Source: Tubiluchus corallicola (lineage: Eukaryota; Priapulida; Priapulimorpha; Priapulimorphida; Tubiluchidae). Taken from it: a stretch of 64,000 bases of DNA. The notes beneath the pieces were generated by a model that did not search any database, was not told where the DNA came from, and saw nothing but the letters and a program-made list of their open reading frames with translations. Within the stretch, counting starts at the first letter, position 1. The number at the start of each line of letters is the position of its first letter. The translations under genes were made by a program, and so were the position numbers. This document shows positions 1-23,304 of the stretch, one piece after another. The stretch lies in the NCBI GenBank assembly GCA_030141605.1, contig JAQGDQ010000042.1:620001-684000 (forward strand), read 5' to 3'.

Positions 1-2507
1 TGTTTTCATTATTTCAGTGTCTAAAAGTTTACGTTTACATTTTTTGTAATTTTCACCAATTATAATCGTACGCCGTATACTTGTGTACGTAAAATTTCAT
101 TTTAAAAATATACACTGCTATCCACTATACCTAGATTTTCTTGATTGCATTGTATTTCATTTCTATTGTAATTTTTGTTTTTGCAACTCGTGACGATTTG
201 TCAGACCGGTAAAGTAATCGATTTTCCTGTATTCTTTTTTGTTCTATAGGCTATCGCTGAGAAACAATATAAAAGGTCTTAGACTATATATGTGGATGTT
301 GAAAGTAAATGAAGAGTTCTACGTGACATGATAATTATCTCTCATGATTACTGCAACTATTGTTATATGATTTTTTTTATAAAATGTAAGGTGGGGACTG
401 TGCAAGAGAGGGTACTTCTGAGCGAGCTTCTGCTTTCCTGGACAACTCTGGCAAGAGGCTGTTGTTTTAAGAAATTAGAGACCCCTGCCACGGAAGGCCT
501 GGTAATATTGAGTTATAAAATGTTGAAAAGGAGTACATGCATAAAATGGATTCCTGGTGTATGTAAACTTTTATACGGTGTGCTGAGCAGTGACATAGGT
601 TATTTAACTAAACATTTTGATTACCTCCAAGTAAATGACTCAGACTGCTATAGAAGCAGTTGCTGAGCTCCCAGAAGTGCTAAGGAGTATGCTAAAAAAA
701 TTGCAAAACAATTAAATGCAGAAAATTATGTACAAAGGTGCTGTGGAATGAAATAAACAGTAAACAAAATAAGAATGATTGCTTGCTTATTCGGCTGAAC
801 AAACAATATTATATAATTTAAAGAAACATCTAATAAATGTGCTAAGCAGTAACCCTACTTTTACAGGAACAATACCTTTGTTATGCAGAATTAGAGACTA
901 TTTATAATTTGGACATCTTAATTTTATCAAAAATAAAGTGTTTTCCTCCACAGCAAAAGGCTCACTATAACTAGCGTTTTTAACTAGCTCGTCAAAACGT
1001 CTAACGTACGGCGAGAAAAAAGCTCTTGCAAAAAGCACTGTAACACTGGAGCGATAAAAATGCCAGTGTAAACATTAATTACAGCCAGAAACGATATCGC
1101 TCCTCAAAATGCCACAAAAACACTCGTGAAAACGTCTAATGCTGTAGCGAGAAAAAAGCTCTTGCATTTTCTTGCTACGCCACAAAAACGCCGTTGAATA
1201 TGGGTATCGCAGCATTTTTGCTGCAGGTTTCGTAATGAGCATGTCACTGAACATTGAACAATGTTGTTGTACATAGTTCTAGTGCAACAGTAGGTGTGGC
1301 AATTGACTTTAAATGAAGCTCAGTCTGGCTATTCCGGGTTCAGTTTTAGTGAGTAACTGCATTCTAAACATCTTACCAAACTCTGAGGTATCCTTTTTTA
1401 GTAATTCTGTCACTATCTTCTCCAAGAAACAATAAGATTACGCCAAGCAATCAAGTTACGAGCTGGTTGTCATCTTATTTTGTATTGTCTCTTGTGTGGT
1501 AAGCACTTCACAGCCGTCCGGGCAAAATTTTCACTCAAAATTAGATGACAAGCATTATACTTCATAAAAATACATGCCAGCTAGACATTTAATTACTTTA
1601 TTAATAATAATAATAATAATAATTGTTTAGGAAACAGTTCAGGAATAACATCTAAAATCAACTCAATGATTATTTCCAATGTGGTCCCCATTTATGCTAT
1701 TACCTGCACGGTTGGTCGAAGAACCAGCTGTATAACTTTTTAAGTCTATCGCGCAACGATGTCCGTTTTCACTGAGTGTTTAAAGCGCAGTGATCGAAAA
1801 AGCTTCTAAGCTGCTAGTGAAAACACTGGAGTGTTCTTCATTCATTTTCATATGGAAAGCGATATTCATTTTCACTGAGCATTAAAAATGACGTAATAAA
1901 CGCAGCTTTAAAAACTCTAGTCAAAACAGACCGTTTACTTGTAATTACTGTGACAAATGAGAAACCTGCTTCTTACAGCCTTCCAACTTTCATCATTTGT
2001 TTGTAATCATAGTGTGAATTAGTAGTGCAGCAAACAGTTTGAATGATCAAACAGTTATGCTGTTTATATAAGCCAGACCAGGGAACATCTTACCAACAGG
2101 GTGGTGGAGCATGCACAGGAATTTTTGTTTTCAACACCATTAGCAATTTAATCCCTTGTATGTTGGGGATTTTGTGTCCTTTCATTGTAATGTCTGCAAC
2201 AAATAGTGTCCCGGGCTTCAAATTTTGGAGGCCTTGCATATTATTGAAAAACAGCCTCAGCTCAACACTGAACACAGTACTAGCCCATTGTATTTTCAAT
2301 ATGCAGGTGGTTTAAATAAATAAACTTGACTTGCCTGTTATTCGATAATATTTCTTTCCACCATTCATGCAAATTTGTGAATGCTTGTTGTGTTATGTTT
2401 GTTTAGACTGTGATTTCTCAGATGCCTTTTAATATGTGCTTTGATTGTTCACAAGACACATTACATATTTGGTAAATAATATTTAGGTTTCTCTTCATAA
2501 TTTTGCT
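1..2507. other. Non-coding, repeat-like 5' flank
   Basis: No conserved coding exon was recognised on either strand. The open frames here are short and have no family resemblance. An imperfect hairpin (ACACTGG ... CCAGTGT) sits near 1039-1068, and related CACTGG-type words recur near 1822-1835 in the opposite sense. The stretch is therefore probably derived from an old non-autonomous transposon, but I could not fix its ends. A short (AAT)n run lies near 1605-1625. The sequence does not resemble the region before the second CHMP5 copy, so it lies outside the duplicated unit. Confidence 0.5.
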
Positions 2508-2605
2508 GACTTTGCAATGATTGTACCAAAGAAGTGACTGAATATAAATTTTAGTTCGTGATTGGTTTGTAGACTTGGTGGTCACTAAATTGTTTTTCTG
2601 TCACA

Positions 2606-5600
2606 ATGAATCGTCTTTTTGGATCATCGAAGCCAAAAGCTCCACCTCCAAATCTCTCGGACTGTATTAGTAATGTAAGTGCAACAGCTGCATTATTTAA
2701 TAAATGTTAGTCTACATTTGTGTTTACGAATACTGAAAAGCTTTTTAAAAACTTTTTCAAGTCCAAAATATTTAACATGTTTTAGCTATAAGCAGAAGAG
2801 TATTGATGGTAAAACTGTAAGTGATGTGGGTGTTTGTGTTACGCTATAAATTGTAGTTGTCTCTGAATGGTGTTCAGATTTTGTGCCACGCTTATGATCT
2901 TGCTTTGGTTGCTGGGTTCACGGACCGCAGTTTTAGTATAAAATATGTATACCAGAACAGTCGGTGAGATTTACACATCAATCGAACAGCGTGCACAGAA
3001 TTAAAAAAATTTTCAACTTAAATTTAAACTGCAGCAGCTTAAAACTATATTTGTATAGCAAATAGTGCTATTTTGTTTTAGTGCAAAATAGATAAAAGTG
3101 CATTTTAACCAATGGCGTGCCTGAATTACTGTTATACCCAACCAACCAGTGGTGTCGGGCGTAATTAACCGATTTAAATAACAATTAGCCAATCAAAAAT
3201 AGCTCAAGTTGTTGTACCGTGGCTGTTGGAAGAACTGTTCAGTTAGAAAACTTGTATCACTTTTCTACTACAAAAATTATGTATAATAATCTTGCACTTT
3301 AGCCATTCAGCAATATAGATTTTTTTATTAGTATTGGACAATTATTTTTATATGATGGCTTTTGAATCAGATTCACATTGACTGAGAAAAGTTGAGAAAT
3401 TTTCCTTGTATTTTAGGTTGACAGCCGTTCAGAGTCAATTGAAAAGAAAATATCCAAATTGGATGCAGAATTAAAAAAATACAAAGATCAGATGAAAAAG
3501 ATGAGAGATGGACCTTCAAAAGTAAGGTTATTTTGTAGTAGTGAACAGCCCCGATAATTATTTAAATATGAACACCCTGACCTGTATTTTGAACTTATTT
3601 TTTGCCGAAAAGACAATGCTTGTTTTTTGTAGCTGGTATCAGAACTTTATTTGTTGCAATAATTTATACAAAATGGTTTTTAACCTAAGCATGATTACTG
3701 AGCATGTTTTTTATATTTTGTATGATTGTACAAACATATTTGCTTGCTTGTTGCTGCAACACGAAAAAGGAAGATGTTTGTTATTTTGTTTCTCAAAAAT
3801 TTTCTCTGTTTCTAGAATATGGTAAAGCAGAAAGCTATGCGAGTCTTAAAACAAAAAAGAATGTAAGTTTTGTGATTCTCTGCTAAAATAGTTGCTTTCA
3901 CTAAATGCATATCACCTTTTTCTTCTATTTTGACATGATAATTGTGAACTAACAAGTTATCGTATCTATTAATTTTGGTTGTGCGGAGTACATATGTATA
4001 TATGTTTCGAGGCTACAGCTCCAATGACAGCACCATTTCCAGCAAAAGGTTTCGATCTACTATCTTGCCATTGGGGGGTTTATTTTTCAAACCAGGCCCA
4101 ATGGGATGAATGGGGGGGGCAAAAAATGCCAGAAAGGGCTCTCTTTTGGCCGTTCTTTGCAAAACTCATACTTCTTATTTCTGGAGAACAGGAATGGGCC
4201 ACGATAGCCCGTTCAGCGGTGGATGGAGTATGCGTTTGAATTTGCGGGAGGGCCACGGTTCCCTGACTCAACTCCTGATTGTTTCCAAAATTTGACTAAA
4301 CAACCTACAGAAAAAACGTTCTAGCAGTGCCTGTTGAGTCTCTTGGAAGGAGATATATTATGGCTGTTTAGAAAGAGGAAGAAAAGGGCTACATGATGGT
4401 GTGGGCTACATTTTAGGAAACCTCCACCGTGAGGAGCTGTGATGAGTTGATTGGAGATTCCATTTTGGACGATTTTCGTTTGGAAAACTGCTGAAGCAAA
4501 GCCATTGTTCTGACGTCATTCCATTGTACTGTGTTTATAACTTTATATATTTCAGTAAAAGCTGCTGCTGGCTTTGCATTAGGTAAATAAACGAACACTA
4601 GGTAGAATGTTCGTGCATTGTTGATTATAAGTGGATTTATAAGCAAAATTTTTTGCAGGGCATTTGTTCATAATCTGTTAATACATATGATGTTTTTTCT
4701 TATTAAATATAAATGGTGATCAGTATGCCTGATTGATATTATTGATATCTTTCTTACAGGTATGAGCAGCAGCGAGACAATTTAATGCAGCAGTCTTTCA
4801 ATATGGAGCAGGCTAACTTTGCGACACAAACGCTTAAGGACACAAAAACAACGGTAAGGCATTCAGAGGCATTCTTACACTTGTGCAAAACCAAAGTGAA
4901 AAAACTTTGGTGACAAAATAGATCAAATTGATGACAGTTAAGGTTTAGGTTTTTTCACGCCACTTTTATACTATAGTACTGTTTCATACTTGTCAGGCAC
5001 ATAGCACATGCAATTTTCAGTTTTTAAATACTCCATTTTTATTAGGGTAGTTTGTATTTAAACATTTCAGTTTGTATGTAGTGCTGTTTTTACTGGTAGT
5101 AATAAGATTGAAATAACAAATATTTCTTTTGTAAATATTTGTCAGTGCTGAATTCATTTAACTATAAATTAATTATCAAGAGGTTATTTGCGTGTTCTTA
5201 CTAATTAACTTGCTAAAATGAAATATCCTTGAGAGCTTTATCAAAATTTGCGCCTTAACATGAGGTTTAACTATTTTGGTATAATAAATGCAACCTCAGC
5301 TTCATGTCAGATGATATATGAAGTAGCATAAAACTGACTTTCCCTAAACAAGATATGTGATTCTAAATTTTTTTAATTACAGTCAGTTCTTGTTATAACG
5401 CCCAAATTTTTCACAAAACAAAATGTCTTTATTTGCATAGGCATGTAGGCATTAATGCACCTCGTTCTAATGCTGAACTCGTTACATCGCCAACTTTTTT
5501 GCTGTTCCTAAGTAGGTGGTATAAAGAAGTTTTACTGTTTTAGTAATTTGTAGTGAATAATTGATCTTTCTATAATACAGGTTGATGCAATGAAAATGGG

Positions 5601-8600
5601 AATGAAAGAAATGAAGAAGGACTATGCAAAAGTTAACATTGATGAAATTGAGGTAAGTAAAATTCAATGCGTGACTGTTCATCAAGCAGTCCAAAATGGA
5701 TGAGCAAAACTGTAACATGAAGGAGACTAATAAGTAAGCATTGCCTTATGCAAAGACAAGTCTAGATGCTATTCAAAAATAAGAGAGTAATTTTATAGAT
5801 TTCTCTTTTGCTGGATTTCATGATTTTTATCAAAGCAAGCAGTATACATTATATACTGTTTCATTAATTTTGTCATGCTTTAAACCGTTTCACAGTTGTC
5901 TGGTATTTTAAGTAGGTGATACTTACTGTAACTACTTTCTGTTTTGGACAGTAGAACTTGTAAACGTAACAAGTTACCCTGTAACAAGTCTGTGCACTCT
6001 AACAGTGCTTGCAGTAATCCTCAGTATAATATACTTGTACAAGCTTGACATTTCAATTTGTATAAGCTAACCAAGTTATTAAAGTTAAAAATGTTTGAAA
6101 CAAGATTACTATAGCAATAGATATTCAGCCGTGTTGTAAACATTTCTGTCACTAACAAATAAGTAACAGGAAATGTAACGTTCTCTTTTAAAATTGTAAA
6201 ATATTCAGCACCGTATAGTACTACGGCATTAATCCGGTATTTCATTTACTATAAAGATTGTCATTTTTATTTTAAGAAATAAACTGTAAGTGTCATTTTA
6301 CAGTGTGCTGAAAATTTGCCACTTTCAGAATCTGCAAGATGATTTGGAAGACATGTTAGAACAAGCTAATGAAGTACAAGAGACGCTTGGTCGATCGTAT
6401 GGAATGCCAGAATTAGATGATGATGAACTTGAAGCTGGTATGTTCTTGCTTGTTAATCTTTTATCACTCTCTGTCATTATTTTTCTTACATTAATTTATG
6501 TATTACCCAAGGTCACAAAAATTGTATTCGCTTGTTTGAATCAACGGCACACTATAACGTGGAAGTTTGTAGCGTGCATTCACACATCCTTTACATATGC
6601 AAATACCTAGTGCTAGTTGTTTACAGGTACTTTACTTTGATTTAGTTATATGCCACCAGTAAGCTCCGCCGCTGTTGTCTTTCCCAGGCACAAACCTGTC
6701 ATAATAAGAATCAGCGCTCTCGCACTGCTGATGCATAATAAACAACGTTCATCTTTACAAATTTACTGATAAAAATAAAAATTAGTTTGTTAAAATAAAT
6801 TGATTTTTGGTATAAATAGATCAGTAAAACAGTACATTTTCGTGCCCAAATTGTAAACAAAATGTATTTACTGTATAACATATAGAACAAACTGTGGCAA
6901 ACCACAATGCAAACTGTTATTTACAATCCTCGCTAGCCTCAGCTTATCTACAAAGTTCAGATTACTGGTTAAAGCAGGTATACATTGTAGAGGTTAGGTA
7001 CCCTGTGTACTTGACACAGTTTCAAAGGTGGAAAAGAAGCCAGAGCGTAAACAGAAAATAGTTATCTGGTTTAGTATGTTAGAATGTTGCTGAGTCCTAA
7101 TTTTGCTATAATTCAAAATTTCAAAGTCAGCTTGCTGGCAAAATTAAAACATCCGGTTTTATGAAGTAGCAGTATGCAGTTTCTCCAAGCCGTATTTACA
7201 GTCCTTGCATTGTAAACTCTAGAGTCTGTGGACTGCTGACTCAAGTACTATGTATGACTTGCTTATTATTGTCAGAAATTAATTCGATTCTCGTCCCACA
7301 TGTTAAAAGATAATAAAGGCTTTTCAATTTTTACTTGTTTGTCAGATATTATGTTAAGCTGTTTCAACAGAGCACAGAAAACTGCACACAATTATGCGAG
7401 AGCAATATCATGCTTGAATTAATTGCATCCTTTATTATAGCAATATTATGCACTTAAGCCTCTAAGACATTTAGCTTAGCTGTGGCTAGGTGTTGTTTGC
7501 CGCTAAGAGGCAAAATGATTCCTACACTGAGTATAGAGTACTGATGCTCTATGCCACCGCCACTGATTCTAATCACATTACTTAGATTCGTTGCCGAAAA
7601 ATCTGTGTAACGGATGTAACACATGTCCATGAATACTCAGATTGCATTTTTCACATGCTTCACCACACTGCATGCCGAAATCTGCCACTTGAGAACAGGG
7701 CTTATTCAATGAGATTTTGTAGCATGACTGAAGCATGGCTCAAGTATCAACGATATCCCTTTAAGATGAGCCACTAAACCAGCAAAGGTGTCTCAAGTAC
7801 GACTGCATGTATTCATATCCTCTCACTACAAAGTAAACAAATGATACCCAGTCCTGAGTGAGCTAGTATCAAAAAAAGAACCCAGGCCGCCAAACACCAT
7901 TAACATGCCTGTCCAATCAGCCTTGAATCTCATCACATCTTACGTTGTCATTAAAACTAACTATGTAGCAGAAGAATAAATAATTGTTGTTTAGCATAAA
8001 TATTTGTTTTTTGTGGGAAGATTTTGTGAATTTAGCCATTACATGCACATGGCCTGTTTATTATTAAACTTAAAAAGTTAACTTTTGTTTGCAAAAAATG
8101 TTTTTAAACTCAATTTGTCTGTTTAAGCCATAATTTTTTGGTAACATTCCATAGTGTCTTCTATGTTAATAGTGTAATTATTTAGTTTTGTTTCAACTTA
8201 TTATCAAGTTAAATTCTATTTAAAGCTGAACTTTTTTTGATATCCCATTTTTAGAACTTGACGCTCTCGGAGATGAAATAGCTTTAGATGACGATACATC
8301 ATTTTTAGATGATGCTATTTCAGCACCCAATGCTCCCAGTAAAGAACCAGGAGCAGACAGTATAGCAGTTAGTGAGGTGAGAAAACCCTCAATTTGCATT
8401 TGCTTTTTGTTAAAGGAAAAGGCAAAGGTCATTAACCTGGTCATACAATTTTTAGTACAACTAATTAACAATTAAAAGTTCTGAAATTATCATGCATGTC
8501 TCTACTTCCTGCTCTAAGATTGACCAAACATACTTGTATTGATTTTTATCTCGCATCCATAGGCGTAGCATAGGTGTGGGACACGGGGTAATCGCTCCGG

Positions 8601-9941
8601 GCGCAAGGGTGAGAGAACGCAAAAGTTTTTTAGAGTTCAATGACTGTTACTTATTAATTACTAATCTGACATTTACAAAATTATTAACAAAAGTTTTCAA
8701 ACTATGACAAAATTGCATAGTCAGAGATCATCATAGCTAATTTAATTACTATGTACAGCCTAAAAAGGCCAATGTTGCTGGTTAATAGTGTGTGTAGAGT
8801 GTTGTGCCTCTTTGCAGATCGATAATTTTGGGAGAAACAGTGTCGTCATTCTCTAAGTGCCGATTGTATTATTGTGAACACCTGTGAATGTTTAAGGACT
8901 GTCGTGTTACACACAACTAATGCATAGAAAAGAGTCACTCTGGTGCAGTACCGCAAATCCAAACTCAGGGCGATTCTTAGGAAAAATTCGATTTCTGTAT
9001 CTCCTCATGCCGGGCTCAGGGACATAAGAAACGTGCACAATTTGCAGCTTCACCCACGAAACAAATGATCAGAACATTAAAAAGTTAGGGCACCAAAAAT
9101 TTTTTGGCCAGTGGGTGCGATATGCACTTGTTGCACCACCGAAAGTTTTTGTTACCATATGAAGGCAATTCTAAAGTTTTGCAGCTGACTCAGAAATATC
9201 ACAAATTTTCCTATTTAAATCTTTGTATCTAAATCTAGGAACACAAAAATTTATAACTTTTTTATTGAAAATTGTCGCAACAACCTTCTTGTGCACACAC
9301 ACTTTTACGCTGTAATAAGAACTGCAAGTACTGTACATAATAAAATTGTAGATTTGTGTTCACTGTTCAGGTAAACGTGCAATTCTGTGAAACTAATAGG
9401 CGCTGGGCTGGCTAATTTTTTGGAGTTTAAGTTTCGGCTTGTTAAAATAACTATTTCGTCACTTTGTCTTAGTGCACTGGCTGAGTTGCAGAGTTATTGT
9501 ACTATTGTTAGTGTAAAAATTTGTTATAATAAAATAAAATGGGATTTGTAAGATTAATCACCTAACTTTATTGGTTTCAACACTTTGTTGTATATTGTTT
9601 TTTGTACGAGAGAAATAAATAAATTGAAATTTAAATTCAAATGAATGATCATGATTTTAAAAACAATTTACTAACTACACGGACTTTTTTACTGTTGAAG
9701 CTTTCCAAGAAGTTTACATTTCGCCACACAGTTTAAAAATCCTAACCCTAATTCACTTCACAAACTAATTTCTTGTGTGTGGGGAATTGTAAAGTAAAAT
9801 TTAACTTTTCGAATTAAAGTAAGCCTTGCCTTTTCCTTCTATATTCATTGGTACAGTAATGTAATTACCATAATGGAATAATCGCTCTTTTAGGGAGGAG
9901 TGCCAGTTGATGAATTCGGATTACCACAATTGCGTGCATAG
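2606..9941 (+). CDS. CHMP5: CHMP5, copy 1 (ESCRT-III-associated protein)
   Basis: Eight exons: 2606-2674, 3417-3521, 3816-3862, 4760-4853, 5581-5652, 6329-6437, 8255-8376, 9894-9941. All have GT-AG borders and the frame stays open for 222 codons (221 residues; the human protein has about 219). CHMP5 is a charged multivesicular body protein of the Snf7 superfamily. It works with ESCRT-III at endosomes and binds VTA1/LIP5, which regulates VPS4. Visible hallmarks are the N-terminal MNRLFG..KPK.PPP motif, a basic helical hairpin (residues about 24-105), an acidic C-terminal half rich in D and E, and the conserved C-terminal DEFGLPQL. Copy 1 keeps F5, K9 and A12 as in the human protein. In exon 5 it has D119, A121 and E127, where copy 2 has E, K and Q. 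Intron 7 is the longest surviving block of shared non-coding repeat. Identity is secure. Confidence 0.96.
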
Positions 9942-11217
9942 AGCTCCACTCGTCATTTGACTGTCGTTTTGTTTGTGAGGACTGGCAGTTGACTCCTCTG
10001 TGATATAGATGTATATTATAAAATGATATATTCTTGTTCATAAAACTTTGAGCTTTGTTAAAAGATCAAACAATTTCCAATTGAAAAACTAAAAATGGAT
10101 TTACATCTTAAATAGCATGGGAAAATATGAGCAACCAACAAGTCACATTTTTGTTATATCTTCTTGGCTAATAAGGCAAGAATATTCTAAAAACAATATA
10201 AATTGAACATTTTGTGTCATTTGATTATTAGAAACCATCACAGAATCTTAGGTTAGAATATTTAACATTAAACTTTTCACAAATTTATATTAATTTTCAT
10301 TGTAAAGTAATAAGTGTTATTAATTGTACAGATAAAATATGTATCACTGAATTTCATTTTTTTCAGTTTTAATTCCCATTTTCTAGTAAAATTTTATTTA
10401 GGAATACTTGTTGATATTTATTTATTTAGATGTTTCCTAGATGTAATGAAATCATTTTTTGGATTGTTTATGCATTATTAATCACCATAAATCTTTGCAA
10501 TTTTTAAAGTAGCTTGTCAATGTACTATGCAAAACAAAAGTTACCCTTTGCTCCATTTGAGGGTATGAAAAGTATTCAAAATATGAATGCTTGAAGTGAA
10601 TGTATCAGCTTTACTGATACATATTATACCTCTTTGTCTGTTATTGTATTGTTGAGATGGACACAGTTGGCAATATCCCATTCTTACCACTGTAAATAAT
10701 GTGACAGTAACTACATTTGCAACATGTTGGCGTTATGATTAGCCCTTTCGTGCCTGTGAGTTTTATATTATCAGAGCTTAGCGTTTATGGAAAAAACTTT
10801 GGCATAGTATAGCAAAATGTTTAGTATTATTGGAACCAACTATTCTTTGGCTTTAATTAACAGTTTATACATTTGAATGTGAAAGAACTATTATAAACTT
10901 AATTAGAGTATAACAAGGTGTGAATTATTTGTTTTTTTTTTGTGAGTTTATTATTTGGTGTTTTACGTATTACATTTTCAAAATTCCACTGTTATAAACA
11001 GTTAAATAAGTGTTTACAGGTCGTGAAATACATAATTCACCAACTGTAATAATCTTGTGATTTAGGCTGTACAAAAAGCGTTACTGAGCCAATTTTTGAT
11101 ATAGAAACACTTTCATGCTGTATTTTGTTGAAGAACTTATTTCTTATGCCGAAAACAAAATCATCATAAAAATTATTTGTTTTATGTTAGTGGCTGTTCT
11201 GGTCTTTATCTTTTTAA
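9942..11217 (+). other. 3' flank of CHMP5 copy 1
   Basis: AT-rich 3' untranslated and intergenic sequence with no coding potential that I recognise. It is shared with 21730-23040 in unit 2. An ATTAAA word near 10265 could act in polyadenylation, but the transcript end cannot be placed. Confidence 0.5.
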
Positions 11218-11622
11218 GAAAAACAAGATGGTTTCTCATATAGTATCCAATTTTAAAGTACGGTAAAAGTATGCATTTTAACACCTATAATAATGGCAAA
11301 AGCAGAAATTGAAGTACGGTGGTACTGTACAATATTCAGTGTGATATACGAAAATTATGCCATATTTTAAGTTTAAAATTCAAATTTCAAGTTTACCGCT
11401 GTGTTTACGCATGAGCTTTCGAACGTGTGCATTACATCAGAACTGAACACCTCTGAACTATGAGAGGTACAGTGCCTTTTTTGTGCAATGCATTTCCCCC
11501 GAGATATAGGCATTAGTGCCCATCTTAACTAGCAAATGGCAAAATACACATAACATTTAGGGAACACGAAATTACGTTTTTTTTGGTGTGGTAATAATTA
11601 TTTCACACAAGTCATTCTTGAA
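11218..11622. mobile_element. TTAA-flanked MITE, copy 1 (truncated)
   Basis: The left end follows TTAA at 11214-11217 and begins GAAAAACAAGATGG. It is homologous to the intact copies at 23041-23304 and 48768-49384. The right end, with its matching inverted repeat, is missing because the sequence passes directly into BEL/Pao coding sequence after the word CATTCTTGAAAA. Target choice suggests a piggyBac-like origin; there is no ORF. Confidence 0.65.
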
Positions 11623-13313
11623 AATCCGGCTGATGATGTTACTCTCGGCCTAGATGCAAATGCACTTTTATGCTCAACCAGATGGAAACATGGACCAGCC
11701 TTCCTGAAACAATCAAAGGAAAATTGGCCAAACTTCGACTTCTTATCAGGAAAGAACTACATGCTGGATGACAAAGAGGTAAAGAGAAAAGTTGCAGCTT
11801 GTGCAATAGAAGTAGTAAGTGAAAAGAGTGTTATAGATAAGCTATGTGAACACTATTCTTCCTTTTTCAGACTGAAACGAGCTGTTGCTTGGCTGATAAA
11901 GGTCAAAAGAAATCTATACAGCCGAATTAGAAGATATAATGAAAATTCATCAATGAAACTAACCTTGTCGGACATTAGTGAAGCTGAAAATGAAATAGTG
12001 AAACACATTCAGCAGATGCATTTCAATAGAGAATACCAGATGTTGTCAAAGGACGTAGGACAATTGGTTCCAAAATCAAGTGATCTCTACAAGCTTGATC
12101 CAGTCATGTCTTCTGGGGGTGTACTGACTATAGGAGGTCGCTTACGCCATGCTGACCTTGCCGACTCAGCAAAACATCCGGTGTTGTTACCTTCCAAACA
12201 CCCATTTTCTAAGCTGGTGATTAGGCACTACCATGACAACTATGGCCATATTGGCAAAGAACACACCATGTCTCTCGTGAGATCCAAGTACTGGATTATA
12301 GGACTTCGTGCAATGACAAACAAGGTAATTCGAGAGTGCAGATTGTGCAGGTTAAAGTTACAATTACCCATGGAGCAAAAATGAGCGATCTGCCACCTGA
12401 AAGAGTTGAAGTTTCCAGATGCTTCGAAAATGTAGACCTAGACTGTTTTGGGCCATACTTAGTTAAAAGAGCACGAAGCCAAGTTAAGCGCTATGGGCTA
12501 ATTACATGCATGGCAACCCGAGCAATTCATTTGGAAGTATTGCACTCTATGGACAGCAGTTCATTGATTAATGCAATTCAACGATTCTCTTGCCGACGAG
12601 GTGAACCAAAAATCATCAGATCTGATTGCGGTACGAACATGGTTGGAGCAGACCGTGAACTCAGGCAGTCAATCAAACAGTTGGAGCAAACAAAGATTTC
12701 TGTTGCAATGCTGAAGCAGAACATAGAATGGAAATTCCACCCACTTGCTGCTCATCACACAGCTGGAGTTTGGGAACGCTTAGTCAAGAGCGTTAAGCGA
12801 GTTTTAAGCTTCGTTATGACCAAGCAAACATTAGATGATGAAGGTTTGCAAACTTACTTTTGTATCGTAGAAAGCATTCTAAATAACAGGCCGATCACGA
12901 GTGTTTCTGATGACATAAAAGACTGTGAAGCACTGACGCCTAATCACCTACTGCAATTACATAAGAACCCAGTTTACGCTCCTTAGCAATTTAGCACAGT
13001 TGACATCTACAAAAAACGTTGGCGACAGATTCAACATATGGCTGACATATTCTGGAGAAGATGGCTTAAGGAATATCTTCCTTTACTTCAGGCACGTTCC
13101 AAGTGTAGTAAAATGAAAAAACCAATTCGCATCGGAGACGTGGTACTCATAAAAGACGAAAATGCTCCTAGAAATTGCTGGTGCCTTGGAAGAGTACAGG
13201 AAGTACATCTTAGCCATGACGGAATCGTACGGACAGCAACCCTGATGACTCAAGGAGGTTTACTGAAACGTCATATCAATCAGCTATGCATGATTGAGGG
13301 AAACAGGGAATAA
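11623..13313 (+). pseudogene. BEL/Pao retrotransposon pol fragment (integrase part), disrupted
   Basis: Three open pieces read as the C-terminal end of a BEL/Pao polyprotein. The first runs about 11623-12384: it begins NPADDVT.GLDA, includes a GP.FL motif, and ends in the integrase zinc-binding region with GHIGKEHT and CRLC. The second, 12336-12986, carries the integrase core, with D in VDLDCFGPY and a later SDCGTN, plus an HHTAGVWERLVKS block typical of the third catalytic (E) region. The third, 13038-13313, resembles the DUF5641 tail found after Pao integrases ([19 protein letters not shown]). One frameshift near 12340-12380 and one stop codon at 12984-12986 break the frame. Gag, protease and reverse transcriptase are absent, so it is 5'-truncated and not functional. 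It lies exactly at the joint between the two CHMP5 units. Confidence 0.88.
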
Positions 13314-13358: not shown

Positions 13359-14037
13359 TGTAGGGAATTTCGCTAAGTATCGCGTTGGTCACGTGACCAC
13401 GTTCACTCACCTGTGCAGATCTGTTTCTACCTGGGCAAGTGAGTTAGCTGGCAGACGTTAACAGGCTTCTTTAAAAGTAGTTTTTCACAGTATGATAGTG
13501 ATAATTTGTCAGATATATTGGTAAATACTAGATTTGCTTTATGGAGACATACGATGTAAGTAAATATATCATTTTGTATCATTTTGATTGAACTGATCAC
13601 TTTGAACATTTTAGTTTAATTAATGACAATCTTATAATTTGATAGAACGTGTTACATAGTATAAATTAGTAAAATTACCAAATTAGGTTTACTTAATGTT
13701 TGTGTTTAGTAAAGTCTAGAACTACAGAATTTAATGCAAATTTGTAAAATAGCTTTTTTTATTTATTTATTTTTCAATAGAAATGACGTATTAAATGCTA
13801 CAATATTTTGTTGGAATATGGCGGACATTGATTGTAGTACATTTCTTTATAAAACATTCAATATCTTATTCTTTATTTCTTTTTTCCATTCAGACTTTTT
13901 CATGACCTTCACCCTTTCTTTATTACTATCTATGGTATATTTTTTGCAGCCTCAACTACTTCATTATACCATGACTTTTCATGTGCACTGTTTATTTGCA
14001 TTTCGAGTACCTCAAATGCTAATCTCTTTGGTTTTTG
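13359..14037 (+). other. Putative BEL/Pao 3' LTR and spacer before unit 2
   Basis: The segment begins TGTAGGGAATTTCGC right after the polypurine tract, as a BEL LTR would. The right LTR end is not identifiable, because no second LTR copy exists in the window for comparison. Somewhere before 14038 the element gives way to ordinary AT-rich DNA. No coding feature was recognised; open frames here are chance ones. Confidence 0.4.
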
Positions 14038-14135
14038 GTGACTTTGCAGTGATTGTACCAAAGAAGTGACTGAATATAAATTTTAGTTCTTGATTGGTTC
14101 GTAGACTTGGTGGTTACTAAATTGTTTCTGTCACA

Positions 14136-17100
14136 ATGAATCGTCTTTCTGGATCATCGACGCCAAAATCTCCACCTCCAAATCTCTCGGACTGTATTAG
14201 TAATGTAAGTGCAACAGCCGCATTATTTAATAAATGTTAGTCTACATTTGTGTTTATGAAAACTGAAAAGCTTTTGAAAACTTTTTCAAGTCCAAAATAT
14301 TTAACATGTTTTAGCTATAAGCAGAAGAGTATTGATGGTAAAACTGTATGTGATGTGGGTGTTTGTGTTACGCTATAAATTGTAGTTGTCTCTGAATGGT
14401 GTTCAGATTTTGTGCCACGCTTATGATCTTGCTTCGGCTACTGGGTTCACGGACCGAAGTTTTGGTATAAAATATATATACCAGATCAGTCGGTGAGATT
14501 TACACATCAACCCGAACAGCGTGCACAGAATTAAAAAATTTTCAACATTTTAACTGCAGCAGCTTGAAACTATATTTGTATAGCAAATAGTGCTGTTTTG
14601 TTTGAGTGCAAAATAGATAAAAGGTGCATTTTAACCAATGGCGTGCCTGAATTACTGTTATACCCAACCAGCCGTGGTGTCGGGCGTAATTAACCGATTT
14701 AAATAACAATTAGCCAATCAAAAATAGCTCAAGTTGTTGTAGTGGCTGTTGGAACAACTGTTCAGTTAGAAAACTTGTATCACTTTTATACTACAAAAAT
14801 TATGTATAATAATCTTGCACTTTAGCCATTCAGCAATATAGATTTTTTTTTTATTAGTATTGGACAATTATTTTTATATGATGGCTTTTGAATCAGATTC
14901 ACATTGACTGAGAAAAGTTGAGAAATTTTCCTTGTATTTTAGGTTGACAGCCGTTCAGAGTCAATTGAAAAGAAAATATCCAAATTGGATGCAGAATTAA
15001 AAAAATACAAAGATCAGATGAAAAAGATGAGAGATGGACCTTCAAAAGTAAGGTTATTTTGTAGTAGTGAACAGCCCCGATAATTATTTAAATATGAACA
15101 CCCTGACCTGTATTTTGAACTTATTTTTTGCCGAAAAGACAATGCTTGTTTTTGTAGCTGGTATCAGAACTTTATTTGTTGCAATAATTTATACAAAATG
15201 GTTTTTAACCTAAGCATGATTACTGAGCATGTTTTTTATATTTTGTATGATTGTACAAACATATTTGCTTGCTTGTTGCTGCAACACGAAAAAGGAAGAT
15301 GTTTGTTATTTTGTTTCTCAAAAATTTTCTCTGTTTCTAGAATATGGTAAAGCAGAAAGCTATGCGAGTCTTAAAACAAAAAAGAATGTAAGTTTTGTGA
15401 TTCTCTGCTAAAATAGTTGCTTTCACTAAATGCATATCACCTTTTTCTTCTATTTTGACATGATAATTGTGAACTAACAAGTTATCGTATCTATTAATTT
15501 TGGTGGTGCGGAGTACATATGTATATATGTTTCGAGGCTACAGCTCCAATGACAGCACCATTTCCAGCAAAAGGTTTCGATCTACTATCTTGCCATGGGG
15601 GGTTTATTTTTCAAACCAGGCCCAATGGGATGAACGGGGGGGGGGTTGCAAAAAATGCCAGAAAGGGCTCTCTTTTGGCCGTTCTTTGCAAAACTCATAC
15701 TTCTTATTTCTGGAGAACAGGAATGGGCCACGATAGCCCGTTCAGCGGTGGATGGAGTATGCGTTTGAATTTGCGGGAGGGCCACGGTTCCCTGACTCAA
15801 CTCCTGATTGTTTCCAAAATTTGACTAAACAACCTACAGAAAAAACGTTCTAGCAGTGCCTGTTGAGTCTCTTGGAAGGAGATATATTATGGCTGTTTAG
15901 AAAGAGGAAGAAAACGGCTACATGATGGTGTGGGCTACATTTTAGGAAACCTCCACCGTGAGGAGCTGTGACGAGTTGATTGGAGATTCCATTTTGGACG
16001 ATTTTCGTTTGGAAAACTGCTGAAGCAAAGCCATTGTTCTGACGTCATTCCATTGTACTGTGTTTATAACTTTATATATTTCAGTAAAAGCTGCTGCTGG
16101 CTTTGCATTAGGTAAATAAACGAACACTAGGTAGAATGTTCGTGCATTGTTGATTATAAGTGGATTTATAAGCAAAATTTTTTGCAGGGCATTTGTTCAT
16201 AATCTGTTAATACATATGATGTTTTTTTCTTATTAAATATAAATGGTGATCAGTATGCCTGATTGATATTATTGATATCTTTCTTACAGGTATGAGCAGC
16301 AGCGAGACAATTTAATGCAGCAATCTTTCAATATGGAGCAGGCTAACTTTGCGACACAAACGCTTAAGGACACAAAAACAACGGTAAGGCATTCAGAGGC
16401 ATTCTTACACTTGTGCAAAACCAAAGTGAAAAAACTTTGGTGACAAAATAGATCAAATTGATGACAGTTAAGGTTTAGGTTTTTTCACGCCACTTTTATA
16501 CTATAGTACTGTTTCATACTTGTCAGGCACATGGCATATGCAATTTTCAGTTTTTAAATACTCCATTTTTATTAGGGTAGTTTGTATTTAAACATTTCAG
16601 TTTGTATGCAGTGCTGTTTTTACAGATATTAATAAGATTGAAATAACAAATCTTTTGTAAATATTTGTCAGTGCTGAATTCATTAAACTATAAATTAATT
16701 ATCAAGAGGTTATTTGTGTGTTCTTACTAATTAACTTGCTAAAATGAAATATCCTTGAGAGCTTTATCAAAATTTGCGCCTTAACATGAGGTTTAACTAT
16801 TTTGGTATGATAAATGCAACCACAGCTTCATGTCAGATGATATATGAAGTAGCATAAAACTGACTTTCCCTAAACAAGATATGTGATTCTAAATTTTTTT
16901 AATTACAGTCAGTTCTTGTTATAACGCCCAAATTTTTCACAAAACAAAATGTCTTTATTTGCATAGGCATGTAGGCATTAATGCACCTCGTTCTAATGCT
17001 GAACTCGTTACATCGCCAACTTTTTTGCTGTTCCTAAGTAGGTGATATAAAGAAGTTTTACTGTTTTAGTAATTTGTAGTGAATAATTGATCTTTCTATA

Positions 17101-20100
17101 ATAAAGGTTGATGCAATGAAAATGGGAATGAAAGAAATGAAGAAGGAATACAAAAAAGTTAACATTGATCAAATTGAGGTAAGTAAAATTCAATGCGTAA
17201 CTGTTCATCAAGCAGTCTAAAATGGATAAGCAAAATTGTAACATGGAGGAGTCTAATAAGTAAGCATTGCCTTATGCAAAGACAAGTCTAGATGCTATTC
17301 AAAAATAAGAGAGTAATTTTATAGATTTCTCTTTTGCTGGATTTCATGATTTTTATCAAAGCAAGCAGTATACATTATATACTGTTTCATTAATTTTGTC
17401 ATGCTTTAAACCGTTTCACAGTTGTCTGGTATTTTAAGTAGGTGATACTAACTGTAACTACTTTCTGTTTTGGACAGTAGAACTTGTAAACGTAACAAGT
17501 TACCCTGTAACAAGTCTGTGCACTCTAATAGTACTTGCAGTAATCCTCAGTATAATATACTTGTACAAGCTTGACATTTCAATTTGTATAAGCTAACCAA
17601 GTTATTAAAGTTAAAAATGTTTGAAACAAGATTACTATAGCAATAGATATTCAGCCGTGTTGTAAACATTTCTGTCACTAACAAATAAGTAACAGGAAAT
17701 GTAACGTTCTCTTTTAAAATTGTAAAATATTCAGCACCGTATAGTACTACGGCATTAATCCGGTATTTCATTTACTATAAAGATTGTCATTTTTATTTTA
17801 AGAAATAAACTGTAAGTGTCATTTTACAGTGTGCTGAAAATTTGCCACTTTCAGAATCTGCAAGATGATTTGGAAGACATGTTAGAACAAGCTAATGAAG
17901 TACAAGAGACGCTTGGTCGATCGTATGGAATGCCAGAATTAGATGATGATGAACTTGAAGCTGGTATGTTCTTGCTTGTTAAACTTTTATCACTCTCTAT
18001 CATTATTGTTCTTACATTAATTTATGTATTACCCAATGTCACAAAAATTGTATTCACTTGTTAGAATCAATGGCGCACTATAACATGGAATTTTGTAGCG
18101 TGCATTCACACATCCTTTACATATGCAAATACCTAGTGCTAGTTGTTTACAGGTACTTTACTTTGATTTAGTTATATGCCACCAGTAAGCTCCGCCGCTG
18201 TTGTCTTTCCCAGGCACAAACCTGTCATAATAAGAATCAGCGCTCTCGCACTGCTGATGCATAATAAACAACGTTCATCTTTACAAATTTACTGATAAAA
18301 ATAAAAATTAGTTTGTTAAAATAAATTGATTTTTAGTATAAATAGATCAGTAAAACAGTACATTTTTGTGCCCAAATTGTAAACAAAATGTATTTACTGT
18401 ATAACATATAGAACAAACTGTGGCAAACCACAATGCAAACTGTTATTTACAATCCTCGCTAGCCTCAGCTTATCTACAAAGTTCAGATTACTGGTTAAAG
18501 CAGGTATACATTGTAGAGGTTAGGTACCCTGTGTACTTGACACAGTTTCAAAGGTGGAAAAGAAGCCAGAGCGTAAACAGAAAATAGTTATCTGGTTTAG
18601 TATGTTAGAATGTTGCTGAGTCCTAATTTTGCTATAATTCAAAATTTAAGTCAGGTTGCCGACAGAATTACAACATTGTGTTTATGAAGTAGCAGTATGC
18701 AGTTTCTCCAAGCCGTATTTACAGTCCCTGCATTGTAAACTCTAAAGTCTGTGGACTGCTGACTCAAGTACTATGTATGACTTGCTTATTATTGTCAGAA
18801 ATTAATTCGATTCTCGTCCCACATGTTAAAAGATAATAAAGGCTTTTCAATTTTTACTTGTTTGTCAGATATTATGTTAAGCTGTTTCAACAGAGCACAG
18901 AAAACTGCACACAATTATGCGAGAGCAATATCATGCTTGAATTAACTCCATCCTTTATTATAGCAATATTATGCACTTAAGCCTCTAAGACATTTAGCTT
19001 AGCTGTGGCTAGGTGTTGTTTGCCGCTAAGAGGCTAAATGATTCCTACACTGAGTATAGAGTACTGATGCTCTATGCCACCGCCACTGATTCTAATCACA
19101 TTACTTAAATTCATTGCCGAAAAATCTGTGTAACGGATGTAACACATGTCCATGAATACTCAGATTGCATTTTTCACATGCTTCACCACACTGCATGCCG
19201 AAATCTGCCACTTGAGAACAGGGCTTATTCAATGAGATTTTGTAGCATGACTGAAGCATGGCTCAAGTATCAACGATATCCCTTTAAGATGAGCCACTAA
19301 ACCAGCAAAGGTGTCTCAAGTACGACTGCATGTATTCATATCCTCTCACTACAAAGTAAACAAATGATACCCAGTCCTGAGTGAGCTAGTATCAAAAAAA
19401 GAACCCGACATGCCTGTCCAATCAGCCTTGAATCTCATCACATCTTACGTTGTCATTAAAACTAACTATGTAGCAGAAGAATAAATAATTGTTGTTTAGC
19501 ATAAATATTTGTTTTTTGTGGGAAGATTTTGTGAATTTAGCCATTACATGCACATGGCCTGTTTATTATTAAACATAAAAAGTTAACTTTTGTTTGCAAA
19601 AAATGTTTTTAAACTCAATTTGTCTGTTTAAGCCATAATTTTTTGGTAACATTCCATAGTGTCTTCTATGTTAATAGTGTAATTATTTAGTTTTGTTTCA
19701 ACTTATTATCAAGTTAAATTCTATTTAAAGCTGAACTTTTTATTTTCAGAACTTGACGCTCTTGGAGATGAAATAGCTTTAGATGACGATACATCATTTT
19801 TAGATGATGCTATTTCAGCGCCCAATGCTCCCAGTAAAGAACCAGGAGCAGACAGTATAGCAGTTAGTGAGGTGAGAAAACCCTCAATTTGCACTTGCTT
19901 TTTGTTAAAGGAAAAGGCAAAGGTCATTAACCCGGTCATACAATTTTTAGTACAACTAATTAACAATTAAATGTTCTGAAATTATCATGCAATGTCTCTA
20001 CTTCCTGCTCTAAGATTGACCAAACATACTTGTATTGATTTTTATCTCCCATCCATAGGCGTAGCATAGGTGTGGGACACGGGGTAATCGCTCCGGGCGC

Positions 20101-21729
20101 AAGGGTGAGAGAACGCAAAAGTTTTTTAGAGTTCAATGACTGTTACTTATTAATTACTAATCTGACATTTACAAAATTATTAACAAAAGTTTTCAAACTA
20201 TGACAAAATTGCATAGTCAGAGATCATCATAGCTAATTTAATTACTATGTACAGCCTAAAAAGGCCAATGTTGCTGGTTAATAGTGTGTGTAGAGTGTTG
20301 TGCCTCTTTGCAGATCGATAATTTTGGGAAAAACAGTGGCGTCATTCTCTAAGTGCTGATTTTATTATTGTGAACACCTGTGAATGTTTAAGGACTGTCG
20401 TGTTACACACAACTAATGCATAGAAAAGAGTCACTCTGGTGCAGTACCGCAAATCCAAACTCAGGGCGATTCTTAGAAAAAATTCGATTTCTGTATCTCC
20501 TCATGCCGGGCTCAGGGACATAAGAAACGTGCACAATTTGCAGCTTCACCCACGAAACAAATGATCAGAACATTAAAAAGTTAGGGCTCCAAAAATTTTT
20601 TGGCCAGTGGATGCGATATGCACTTGTTGCACCACCGAAAGTTTTTGTTACCATATGAAGGCAATTCTAAAGTTTTGCAGCTGACTCAGAAATATCACAA
20701 ATTTTCCTATTTAAATCTTTGTATCTAAATTTAGGAACACAAAAATTTATAACTTTTTTATTGAAAATTGTCGTAACAACCTTCTTGTGCACACACAGTT
20801 TTAATCTGTAATAAATACTGCAAGTACTGTACATAATAAAATTGTAGATTTGTGTTCACTGTTCACAGGCTAATTTTTTGGAGTTTAAGTTTCGGCTTGT
20901 TAGAATAACTATTTCGCCGCTTTGTCTTAGTGCACTGGCCAAGTTGCAGAGTTACTGTACTATTGTTAGTGTAAAAATTTGTTATAATGAAATAAAATGG
21001 GATTTGTAAGATCAATCATCTAACTTTATTGTATATTGTTTTTGTATGAGAGAAATGAATAAATTGAAATTTAAATTCAAATGAATGACCATCATTTTAA
21101 AAAAAATTTACTAACTGTTGTGGAGATTGCTGACGTCAAGTAGAAGTGCATGGAACATCACAGAATGTTCCGTCGGGATGACCGCCTTAGCATCTGGATT
21201 GTTCTCGAACATTTGTTCGAGAAGTTTCTCCAGCGCGCTATATAAGGCGAAGCAGGCTGCCGACACGGGATCGCACATCTCACACAGATCTAACACAGAC
21301 TCATACTTGTATACTTACCTTTTCAGATATACTTAAACGTTTTCCAGATTTTCACGTTTAGTATAATCATTTCTTGTTCCTTCATCTTTGTGTTATAGAA
21401 TTCTCGCTGAAATAAAGTAGTTTTATTTGACGGCGTGTTTTCTGGTTTTCGCTACGAGCCTGCCGAGAGAAACAAAACACAACACTAACTACACAGACTT
21501 TTGTACTGTTGAAGCTTTCCAAGAAGTTTACATTTCGCCACACAGTTTAAAAATCCTAACTCTAATTCACTTCACGAACTGATTTCTTGTGTGTGAGGAA
21601 TTGTAAAGTAAGCTTTGCCTTTTCCTTCTGATTCATTGGTACAGTAATGTAATTACCATAATCGAATAATCGCTCTTTTAGGGAGGAGTGCCAGTTGATG
21701 AATTCGGATTACCACAATTGCGTGCATAG
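14136..21729 (+). CDS. CHMP5: CHMP5, copy 2 (ESCRT-III-associated protein)
   Basis: Eight exons: 14136-14204, 14943-15047, 15341-15387, 16290-16383, 17107-17178, 17855-17963, 19750-19871, 21682-21729. Exon lengths and phases are identical to copy 1, giving an intact 221-residue protein. Differences from copy 1 are F5S, K9T and A12S (exon 1) and D119E, A121K and E127Q (exon 5). All other exons match at protein level, with only silent changes in exons 4 and 7. The exon 1 changes alter the N-terminal LFG..KPKAPPP motif, which is strongly conserved in the family and lies in the region linked to membrane contact in ESCRT-III proteins. The exon 5 residues K121 and Q127 match the human protein, so there copy 1 is the derived one. 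The acceptor before exon 5 is AAG here and CAG in copy 1. No stop or frameshift is present, so I treat it as a gene, not a pseudogene. Confidence 0.93.
21111..21489. mobile_element. Solo LTR with 5-bp target duplication
   Basis: The LTR body is 21116-21484 (369 bases). It starts TGTTGTGG and ends CACAACA, so its ends form a short inverted repeat with the TG...CA signature. It is flanked by CTAAC at 21111-21115 and 21485-21489. Inside are a TATA-like CTATATAAGG near 21239 and a polyadenylation-like AATAAAG near 21411, consistent with a plus-strand LTR promoter and end signal. The matching site in unit 1 (about 9664-9680) is uninterrupted with a single CTAAC. The insertion therefore happened after the duplication, or was lost by conversion in the other copy. 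Confidence 0.92.
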
Positions 21730-23040
21730 AGCTCCACTCGTCATTTGACTGTCGTTTTGTTTGTGAGGACTGGCAGTTGACTCCTCTGTGATATAGATGT
21801 ATATTATAAAATGATATATTCTTGTTTATAAAACTTTGAGCTTTGTTAAAAGATCAAACAATTTCCAATTGAAAACTAAAAATGGATTTACATCTTAAAA
21901 AGCATGGGAAAACATGAGCAACTAGCAAGTCACATTTTTGTTATATCTTCTTGGCTAATAAGGCAAGAATATTCTAAAAACAATATAAATTGAACATTTT
22001 GTGTCATTTGATTATTAGAAACCATTACCGGATCTTAGGTTAGAATATTTAACATTAAACTTTTCACAAATTTGTATTAATTTTCATTGTAAAGTAACAA
22101 GTGTTATTAATTGTACAGATAAAATATGTATCACTGAATTTCATTTTTTCAGTTTTAATTCCTATTTTCTAGCAAAATTTTATTTAGGAATACTTGTTGA
22201 TATCATTTATTTATTTAGATGTTTCCTAGATGTAATGTAATGAAATCATTTTTGGATTGTTTATGCATTATTAATCACCATAAATATTTGCAATTTTAAA
22301 GCAGCTTGTCAATATTATGCAAAACAAAAGTTATCCTTCGCTCCATTTGAGGGCATGAAAAGTATTCAAAATATGAATGCCTGAAGTGAATGCATCAGCT
22401 TTACTGATACATATTATGCCACTTTGTCTGTTGTTGTATTGTTGAGATGGACACAGTTGGCAATATCCCATTCCTACCACTGTAAATAATGTGACAGTAA
22501 CTACATTTGCAACATGTTGGCGTTATGATTAGCCCTTTCCTGCCTGTGAGTTTTATATTATCAGAGCTTAGCGTATATGGAAAAATCTTTGACATAGTAT
22601 AGCAAAAGTAATAATTTAGTATTATTGGAACCAACTATTCTTTGGCTTTAATTAACAGTTTATACATTTGAATGTGAAAGAACTATTATAAACTTAATTA
22701 GAGTATAATAAGGTGTGAATTATTTGTTTTTTTGTGAGTTTATTATTTGGTGTTTTACGTATTACATTTTCAAAATTCCACTGTTATAAACAGTTAAATA
22801 AGTTTTTACAGGTCGTGAAATACATAATTCACCAAGTGTAATAATCTTTTGGGATTAGGCTGTACAAAAAGCATTACTGCAAATTAATTGGTAACGAAAT
22901 TTACAGTTTATTACTAGCCAATTTTCGATACACTTGCATGCTGTATTTTGTTGAAGAACTTGTTTCTTATGCCGAAAACAAAATCATCATAAAAATTACT
23001 TGTTTTATGTTAGTGGCTGTTCTGGTCTTCATCTTTTTAA
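21730..23040 (+). other. 3' flank of CHMP5 copy 2
   Basis: AT-rich non-coding sequence shared with unit 1. No gene was seen. One insertion relative to unit 1 (about 22879-22918) has no recognisable identity. Confidence 0.5.
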
Positions 23041-23304
23041 GAAAAACAAGATGGTTTTTCATATAGTATCCAATTTTAATGTATGGTAAAAGTATGCATT
23101 TTAACACCTATAATAATGGCAAAAACAGAAATTGAAATACCGTGATACTGTACAATATTCAGTGTGATATTCAAAAAGTTAAGCCATATTTTAAGTTTAA
23201 AATTCAATGATTTTAAATAAATTCATTCTTGAAAAAATAGTATGTTACCTTTCAATATGGTAAATTGTTTTGAGCTGTAGTTTAAAATTGGGTTCAGTTT
23301 TCAT
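23041..23304. mobile_element. TTAA-flanked MITE, copy 2 (internally deleted)
   Basis: Flanked by TTAA at 23037-23040 and 23305-23308. The ends read GAAAAACAAGATGG on the left and, on the opposite strand, ATGAAAACTGAACCC on the right, an imperfect inverted repeat. Compared with copies 1 and 3, a middle part of about 200 bases is missing (junction near 23205-23225). No ORF. Confidence 0.7.

Follow-up and report, generated by a model that had tools for sequence, protein, structure and literature searches.

Two tandem CHMP5 genes with protein differences in two exons: a probable young duplication partly homogenised by gene conversion

The window analysed here (the whole 64-kb stretch of DNA, positions 620001-684000 of contig C246 in a 343.5 Mb animal assembly) contains two intact CHMP5 genes in tandem, copy 1 at 2606-9941 and copy 2 at 14136-21729. 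CHMP5, the orthologue of Vps60, probably underwent a recent tandem duplication here, after which the copies were partly homogenised by gene conversion and diverged in a near-neutral or relaxed manner, with no demonstrated split of function. The initial annotation had read the protein differences, which lie in exons 1 and 5, as complementary functional change.

Each gene, rebuilt directly from the window sequence, has eight exons, GT-AG introns, and a 666-nt CDS encoding 221 aa (Table 1). Both proteins give a full-length Snf7 match (PF03357; E about 1e-48 to 1e-50), scoring 165.1 bits for copy 1 and 169.0 bits for copy 2 at a cut-off of 27.3. Their C-terminal half matches the human CHMP5 chains 2lxm, 4txr, and 3uly, and phmmer matched the C-terminal LIP5/VTA1-binding region (MIM5) to 2lxm_B (E 4e-18) and 4txr_C (E 7e-18). 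This MIM5-like region resembles residues 139-195 of human CHMP5 and is the predicted LIP5/VTA1 binding region of both proteins; the predicted binding residues, encoded by exons 6-7, do not differ between copies. The pair departs from known CHMP5/Vps60 in comprising two tandem copies, one with an altered N-terminal motif (copy 2) and the other with an altered alpha3/alpha4 region (copy 1).

Table 1. Features of the CHMP5 pair and its surroundings (positions in the window; boundaries of the divergence segments were set after the data had been viewed)
Feature	Position	Strand	Remarks
Duplication unit copy 1	2501..11386	+	CHMP5 with ~105 bp of upstream and ~1.4 kb of downstream sequence; self-BLAST
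Duplication unit copy 2	14033..23208	+	Same BLAST pairing
CHMP5 copy 1 exon 1	2606..2674	+	Ancestral-like N-terminal motif; L-F-G and K9 common to CHMP2 paralogues
CHMP5 copy 1 exons 2-4	3417-3521, 3816-3862, 4760-4853	+	Gene rebuilt from sequence
CHMP5 copy 1 exon 5	5581..5652	+	Probably derived; 5 substitutions vs copy 2
CHMP5 copy 1 exons 6-8	6329-6437, 8255-8376, 9894-9941	+	
CHMP5 copy 2 exon 1	14136..14204	+	Probably derived (F5S, K9T, A12S)
CHMP5 copy 2 exons 2-4	14943-15047, 15341-15387, 16290-16383	+	1 silent change
CHMP5 copy 2 exon 5	17107..17178	+	Probably ancestral
CHMP5 copy 2 exons 6-8	17855-17963, 19750-19871, 21682-21729	+	2 silent changes
Near-identical tract over exons 2-4	3266..4967	+	5 substitutions in 1700 bp; 713-bp run without any
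Non-coding divergence, exon 1 segment	2501-3265		4.23%
Non-coding divergence, exons 2-4 segment	3266-4999		0.27%
Non-coding divergence, exon 5 segment	5000-5730		2.75%
Non-coding divergence, exon 6 segment	5731-6456		0.49%
Non-coding divergence	6457-7225		2.87%
Non-coding divergence, exon 7 segment	7226-9220		1.03%
Non-coding divergence, upstream of exon 8	9221-9893		7.6%
Non-coding divergence	beyond 9893		3.5%
Retrotransposon remnant between copies	11554..13313	+	ORFs; integrase zinc-binding domain (Pfam PF17921)
Solo-LTR-like insertion, 369 bp, copy 2 intron 7	21116..21484	.	TG...CA ends; 5-bp target duplication CTAAC

Self-BLAST pairs the two units at 97.6% over 6.88 kb and then at 93.5% farther downstream; boundaries are sharp, and the flanks beyond the units have no homology to each other. 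Between the copies lie 2.65 kb of linking sequence, with a retrotransposon remnant that is presumably BEL/Pao, and the window contains no N. A search of the assembly gave no CHMP5 match outside the tandem pair, neither a third copy nor a retrocopy, and the Rab-like gene and the tRNA m1G methyltransferase gene near the pair were each found once. The solo-LTR-like insertion is observed in copy 2 only, the matching site in copy 1 being empty.

Diverged alleles of a single gene can be set in series during assembly, in which case the differences described here would be polymorphism. Divergence of 1.7-7% falls in the range of heterozygous invertebrates, so the two copies are compatible with alleles in this respect, and the LTR difference taken alone could equally be allelic. 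The assembly is also redundant elsewhere. A single-exon CHMP2A gene is present on six 100% identical contigs (C1752, C1831, C1974, C2072, C2074, and C2107), and a 3-kb stretch 300 kb from it is likewise identical across all six, indicating that the assembly emits long redundant paths. Heterotype false duplications are a documented class of assembly error (PMC8081667), and the CHMP5 pair resembles them in having two near-identical copies in an assembly with redundancy elsewhere. Unlike such errors, the CHMP5 copies are joined by linking sequence without a gap, their flanks are non-homologous, and the neighbouring genes are single-copy. We therefore consider an assembly artefact unlikely.

The coding sequences of the two copies differ by 11 substitutions, seven nonsynonymous and four silent. 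The codon-by-codon list gives exactly six residue differences confined to two exons, as the initial annotation had claimed. Exon 1 carries F5S, K9T, and A12S (copy 1 to copy 2 throughout), and the N terminus reads MNRLFG in copy 1 vs MNRLSG in copy 2. Exon 5 carries D119E, A121K (two substitutions), and E127Q, plus a silent change at Y120; of these three replacements, the initial annotation correctly listed residues 121 and 127 and omitted D119E. Its statement that the remaining exons differ only silently holds, with three silent sites (Q85 in exon 4; L170 and A189 in exon 7). Four of the five exon 5 substitutions fall within 6 bp (5622-5627), a clustering with P=0.0003 under random placement in the CDS. 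This suggests a single clustered mutation, and the three exon 5 replacements may represent one or two mutational events. A search of both window strands for a local template of the cluster found partial matches only, none convincing.

Polarity of the changes appears to be reciprocal. CHMP5 copy 1 has L4-F5-G6 and K9 in common with the CHMP2 paralogues encoded in the same genome, which argues that S5 and T9 of copy 2 are derived, as first proposed. F5 is conserved across ESCRT-III paralogues, conservation of the N-terminal Phe being judged from paralogues. Because the Snf7 profile starts at about residue 13, exon 1 changes are invisible to the profile score. Copy 2 fits this profile better than copy 1 (169.0 > 165.1 bits), and at position 127 of the alignment yeast Vps60 carries K, which is not acidic; copy 1 is therefore probably the derived copy in exon 5, again in line with the first reading. 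Human CHMP5 has A119/K121/Q127, and the fly protein has E119/K121/Q127. Viral contigs and bacterial and archaeal genomes yielded no outgroup CHMP5, and literature searches for the MNRLFG motif and for CHMP5 duplications returned nothing usable.

Non-coding divergence between the copies is observed to be patchy along the unit, with a dispersion of 3.5 compared to a maximum of 2.48 in 5000 permutations. The 713-bp run free of substitutions has a permutation P of 0.0002, and the lowest 1700-bp window across 500 permutations held 11 substitutions, vs five in the near-identical tract over exons 2-4. This tract likely reflects gene conversion. Variable mutation rate or local constraint could in principle also produce the divergence mosaic. 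Whether conversion tracts cover the unchanged exons had been proposed as a check, and the mosaic answers it: conversion fits exons 2-4 and 6, which occupy near-identical segments (0.27% and 0.49%, with boundaries drawn post hoc). Exon 8 is unchanged though divergence around it is 5-8%, so conversion is insufficient to account for every conserved exon and purifying selection acts too. The interpretation of exon confinement as complementary functional change is not upheld, since the unchanged exons 2-4 and 6 sit in near-identical tracts while exons 1 and 5 sit in diverged segments. In a young, partly converted duplicate, conversion that erases replacements elsewhere can mimic exon confinement, and caution is warranted. 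The pair resembles young tandem duplicates with gene-conversion mosaics, in which near-identical and diverged segments alternate, frames are intact, and duplication boundaries are sharp; compared to these, it has nothing distinctive.

Confinement of replacements to two exons is real yet only mildly unusual, and it was spotted post hoc. If the six replacements are independent, the probability that they fall in no more than two of eight exons is 0.011 by exon length and 0.025 with weights taken from local intron divergence. If the 119-121 cluster is treated as one event, five events remain and P is 0.04-0.07; if exon 5 as a whole is treated so, four remain and P is 0.12-0.17. Overall dN/dS between the copies is 0.43. 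In exons 1 and 5 together, 7/114 nonsynonymous vs 1/27 synonymous sites changed (Fisher P=1.0; counts are few), and this lack of a nonsynonymous excess also speaks against complementary change. The replacement rate in these exons is mildly above that of flanking introns (P=0.04), but not once the cluster is merged (P=0.22); exon 5 substitutions exceed the prediction from the flanks (P=0.007-0.05). Both excesses run against the preferred reading. Outside exons 1 and 5, zero replacements in 418 nonsynonymous sites vs three silent changes in 104 synonymous sites (P=0.008) indicate that constraint persists there. We do not invoke positive selection on exons 1 and 5, where counts are too few and show no replacement excess; there is no basis for a claim of positive or complementary selection.

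Both changed regions are functional, as initially annotated: the N-terminal membrane motif is encoded by exon 1, and the alpha3/alpha4 hinge of Snf7 is the counterpart of exon 5 in the alignment (PMC4720517). CHMP5 residues 120, 121, 123, 127, and 128 align to Snf7 His118, S119, L121, K125, and V126, which places residues 119-121 at the alpha3 end and hinge and residue 127 in the first turn of alpha4. This hinge matters in Snf7, where sorting falls to 32% in the L121P mutant and function is lost in V126E (PMC4720517). The aligned CHMP5 residues, V123 and I128, are the same in both copies, and the altered sites flank them. The altered exon 5 sites vary among paralogues, so these changes may have a mild effect. 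In exon 1, F5S takes away a bulky hydrophobic residue and K9T takes away a charge; the Wimley-White sum for residues 1-6 goes from -0.68 (copy 1) to +0.58 kcal/mol (copy 2). Judged from these properties, copy 2, lacking this Phe and Lys, should contact the membrane more weakly. Yeast Vps60(128-186) by itself was reported to stimulate Vps4 via Vta1 (PMC5141497), and mammalian CHMP5 retains VTA1 binding after deletion of an NLS in its N-terminal part (PMC12049546).

These predicted effects could be combined into complementary subfunctionalisation, with copy 1 providing membrane anchoring and a modified hinge, copy 2 keeping the ancestral hinge and acting as a soluble LIP5/VTA1 cofactor, and selection keeping both. 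The reciprocal polarity of the exon 1 and exon 5 changes fits such a split, as do the loss of F5 and K9 with its shift in the Wimley-White sum, the sorting defect of Snf7 L121P in the alpha3/4 loop (PMC4720517), and the survival of VTA1 binding in the CHMP5 deletion (PMC12049546). However, the conversion mosaic and the clustered mutation largely account for exon confinement, replacement change is not in excess of silent change, and neither V123 nor I128, at the known hinge and alpha4 positions, has changed, while the altered flanking sites vary among paralogues. We regard subfunctionalisation as improbable. Its fuller form is more doubtful still: a membrane-anchored copy 1 with a retuned hinge and a soluble VPS4/LIP5 cofactor copy 2, carried in the extreme to transcripts that splice copy 1 exon 1 to copy 2 exon 5 and so restore an ancestral-like protein. 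If a split were true, the pair would offer a natural experiment for separating CHMP5 functions that depend on the membrane motif from those for which LIP5/VTA1 binding is enough.

Decay of copy 2 toward a pseudogene, the copy 1 exon 5 change being harmless variation, is the least probable of the readings weighed here. Copy 2 has lost F5, which is conserved across ESCRT-III paralogues, it does not carry the parental upstream region past ~105 bp from the start codon, and an LTR has inserted in it. Nevertheless, its frame and splice sites are intact, its Snf7 domain outscores that of copy 1, and, if the exon 5 polarity is correct, it has no replacements outside exon 1.

In the preferred reading, partial conversion of a young duplicate, a recent tandem duplication of CHMP5 would have left two copies that are still intact and coding. 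Gene conversion would have homogenised them in part, mainly in exons 2-4 and near exon 6, and residue differences would persist in stretches that conversion left untouched and that were under the loosest constraint. Copy 2 would have gained three N-terminal changes, losing the conserved Phe and a Lys, and copy 1 would have acquired an apparent single multi-base mutation at 119-121 as well as E127, in the neighbourhood of the alpha3/alpha4 hinge. With an identical C-terminal LIP5/VTA1-binding region, both proteins could act as VPS4 cofactor. The N terminus of copy 2 would probably bind membrane more weakly, and copy 1 would stay the main membrane-associated form. Divergence would be near-neutral or relaxed, and the pair may be kept as dosage or redundancy.

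Several other repeats were observed in the window and the assembly. Part of CHMP5 intron 1 (2969-3344) has dozens of dispersed matches in the assembly at 67-91% identity, indicating a repeat family within this intron. The minus strand carries a long open frame at 56017-58482 that resembles a gypsy-like retrotransposon polyprotein in its zinc knuckle, protease, and integrase parts, a name given by reading and not by profile search. It is flanked by 248-bp direct repeats at 55544-55791 and 59515-59762 that are probably its LTRs; they are 100% identical, which suggests a recent insertion. The CHMP2A gene lies within a 4888-bp tandem repeat (469-10000 of its extracted locus) with one mismatch in at least 4644 bp (A21T in the protein); this repeat represents a very recent duplication if it is not an artefact of assembly. 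The same assembly contains another CHMP2A-like gene, diverged and intron-free, at C2279:281040-281537.
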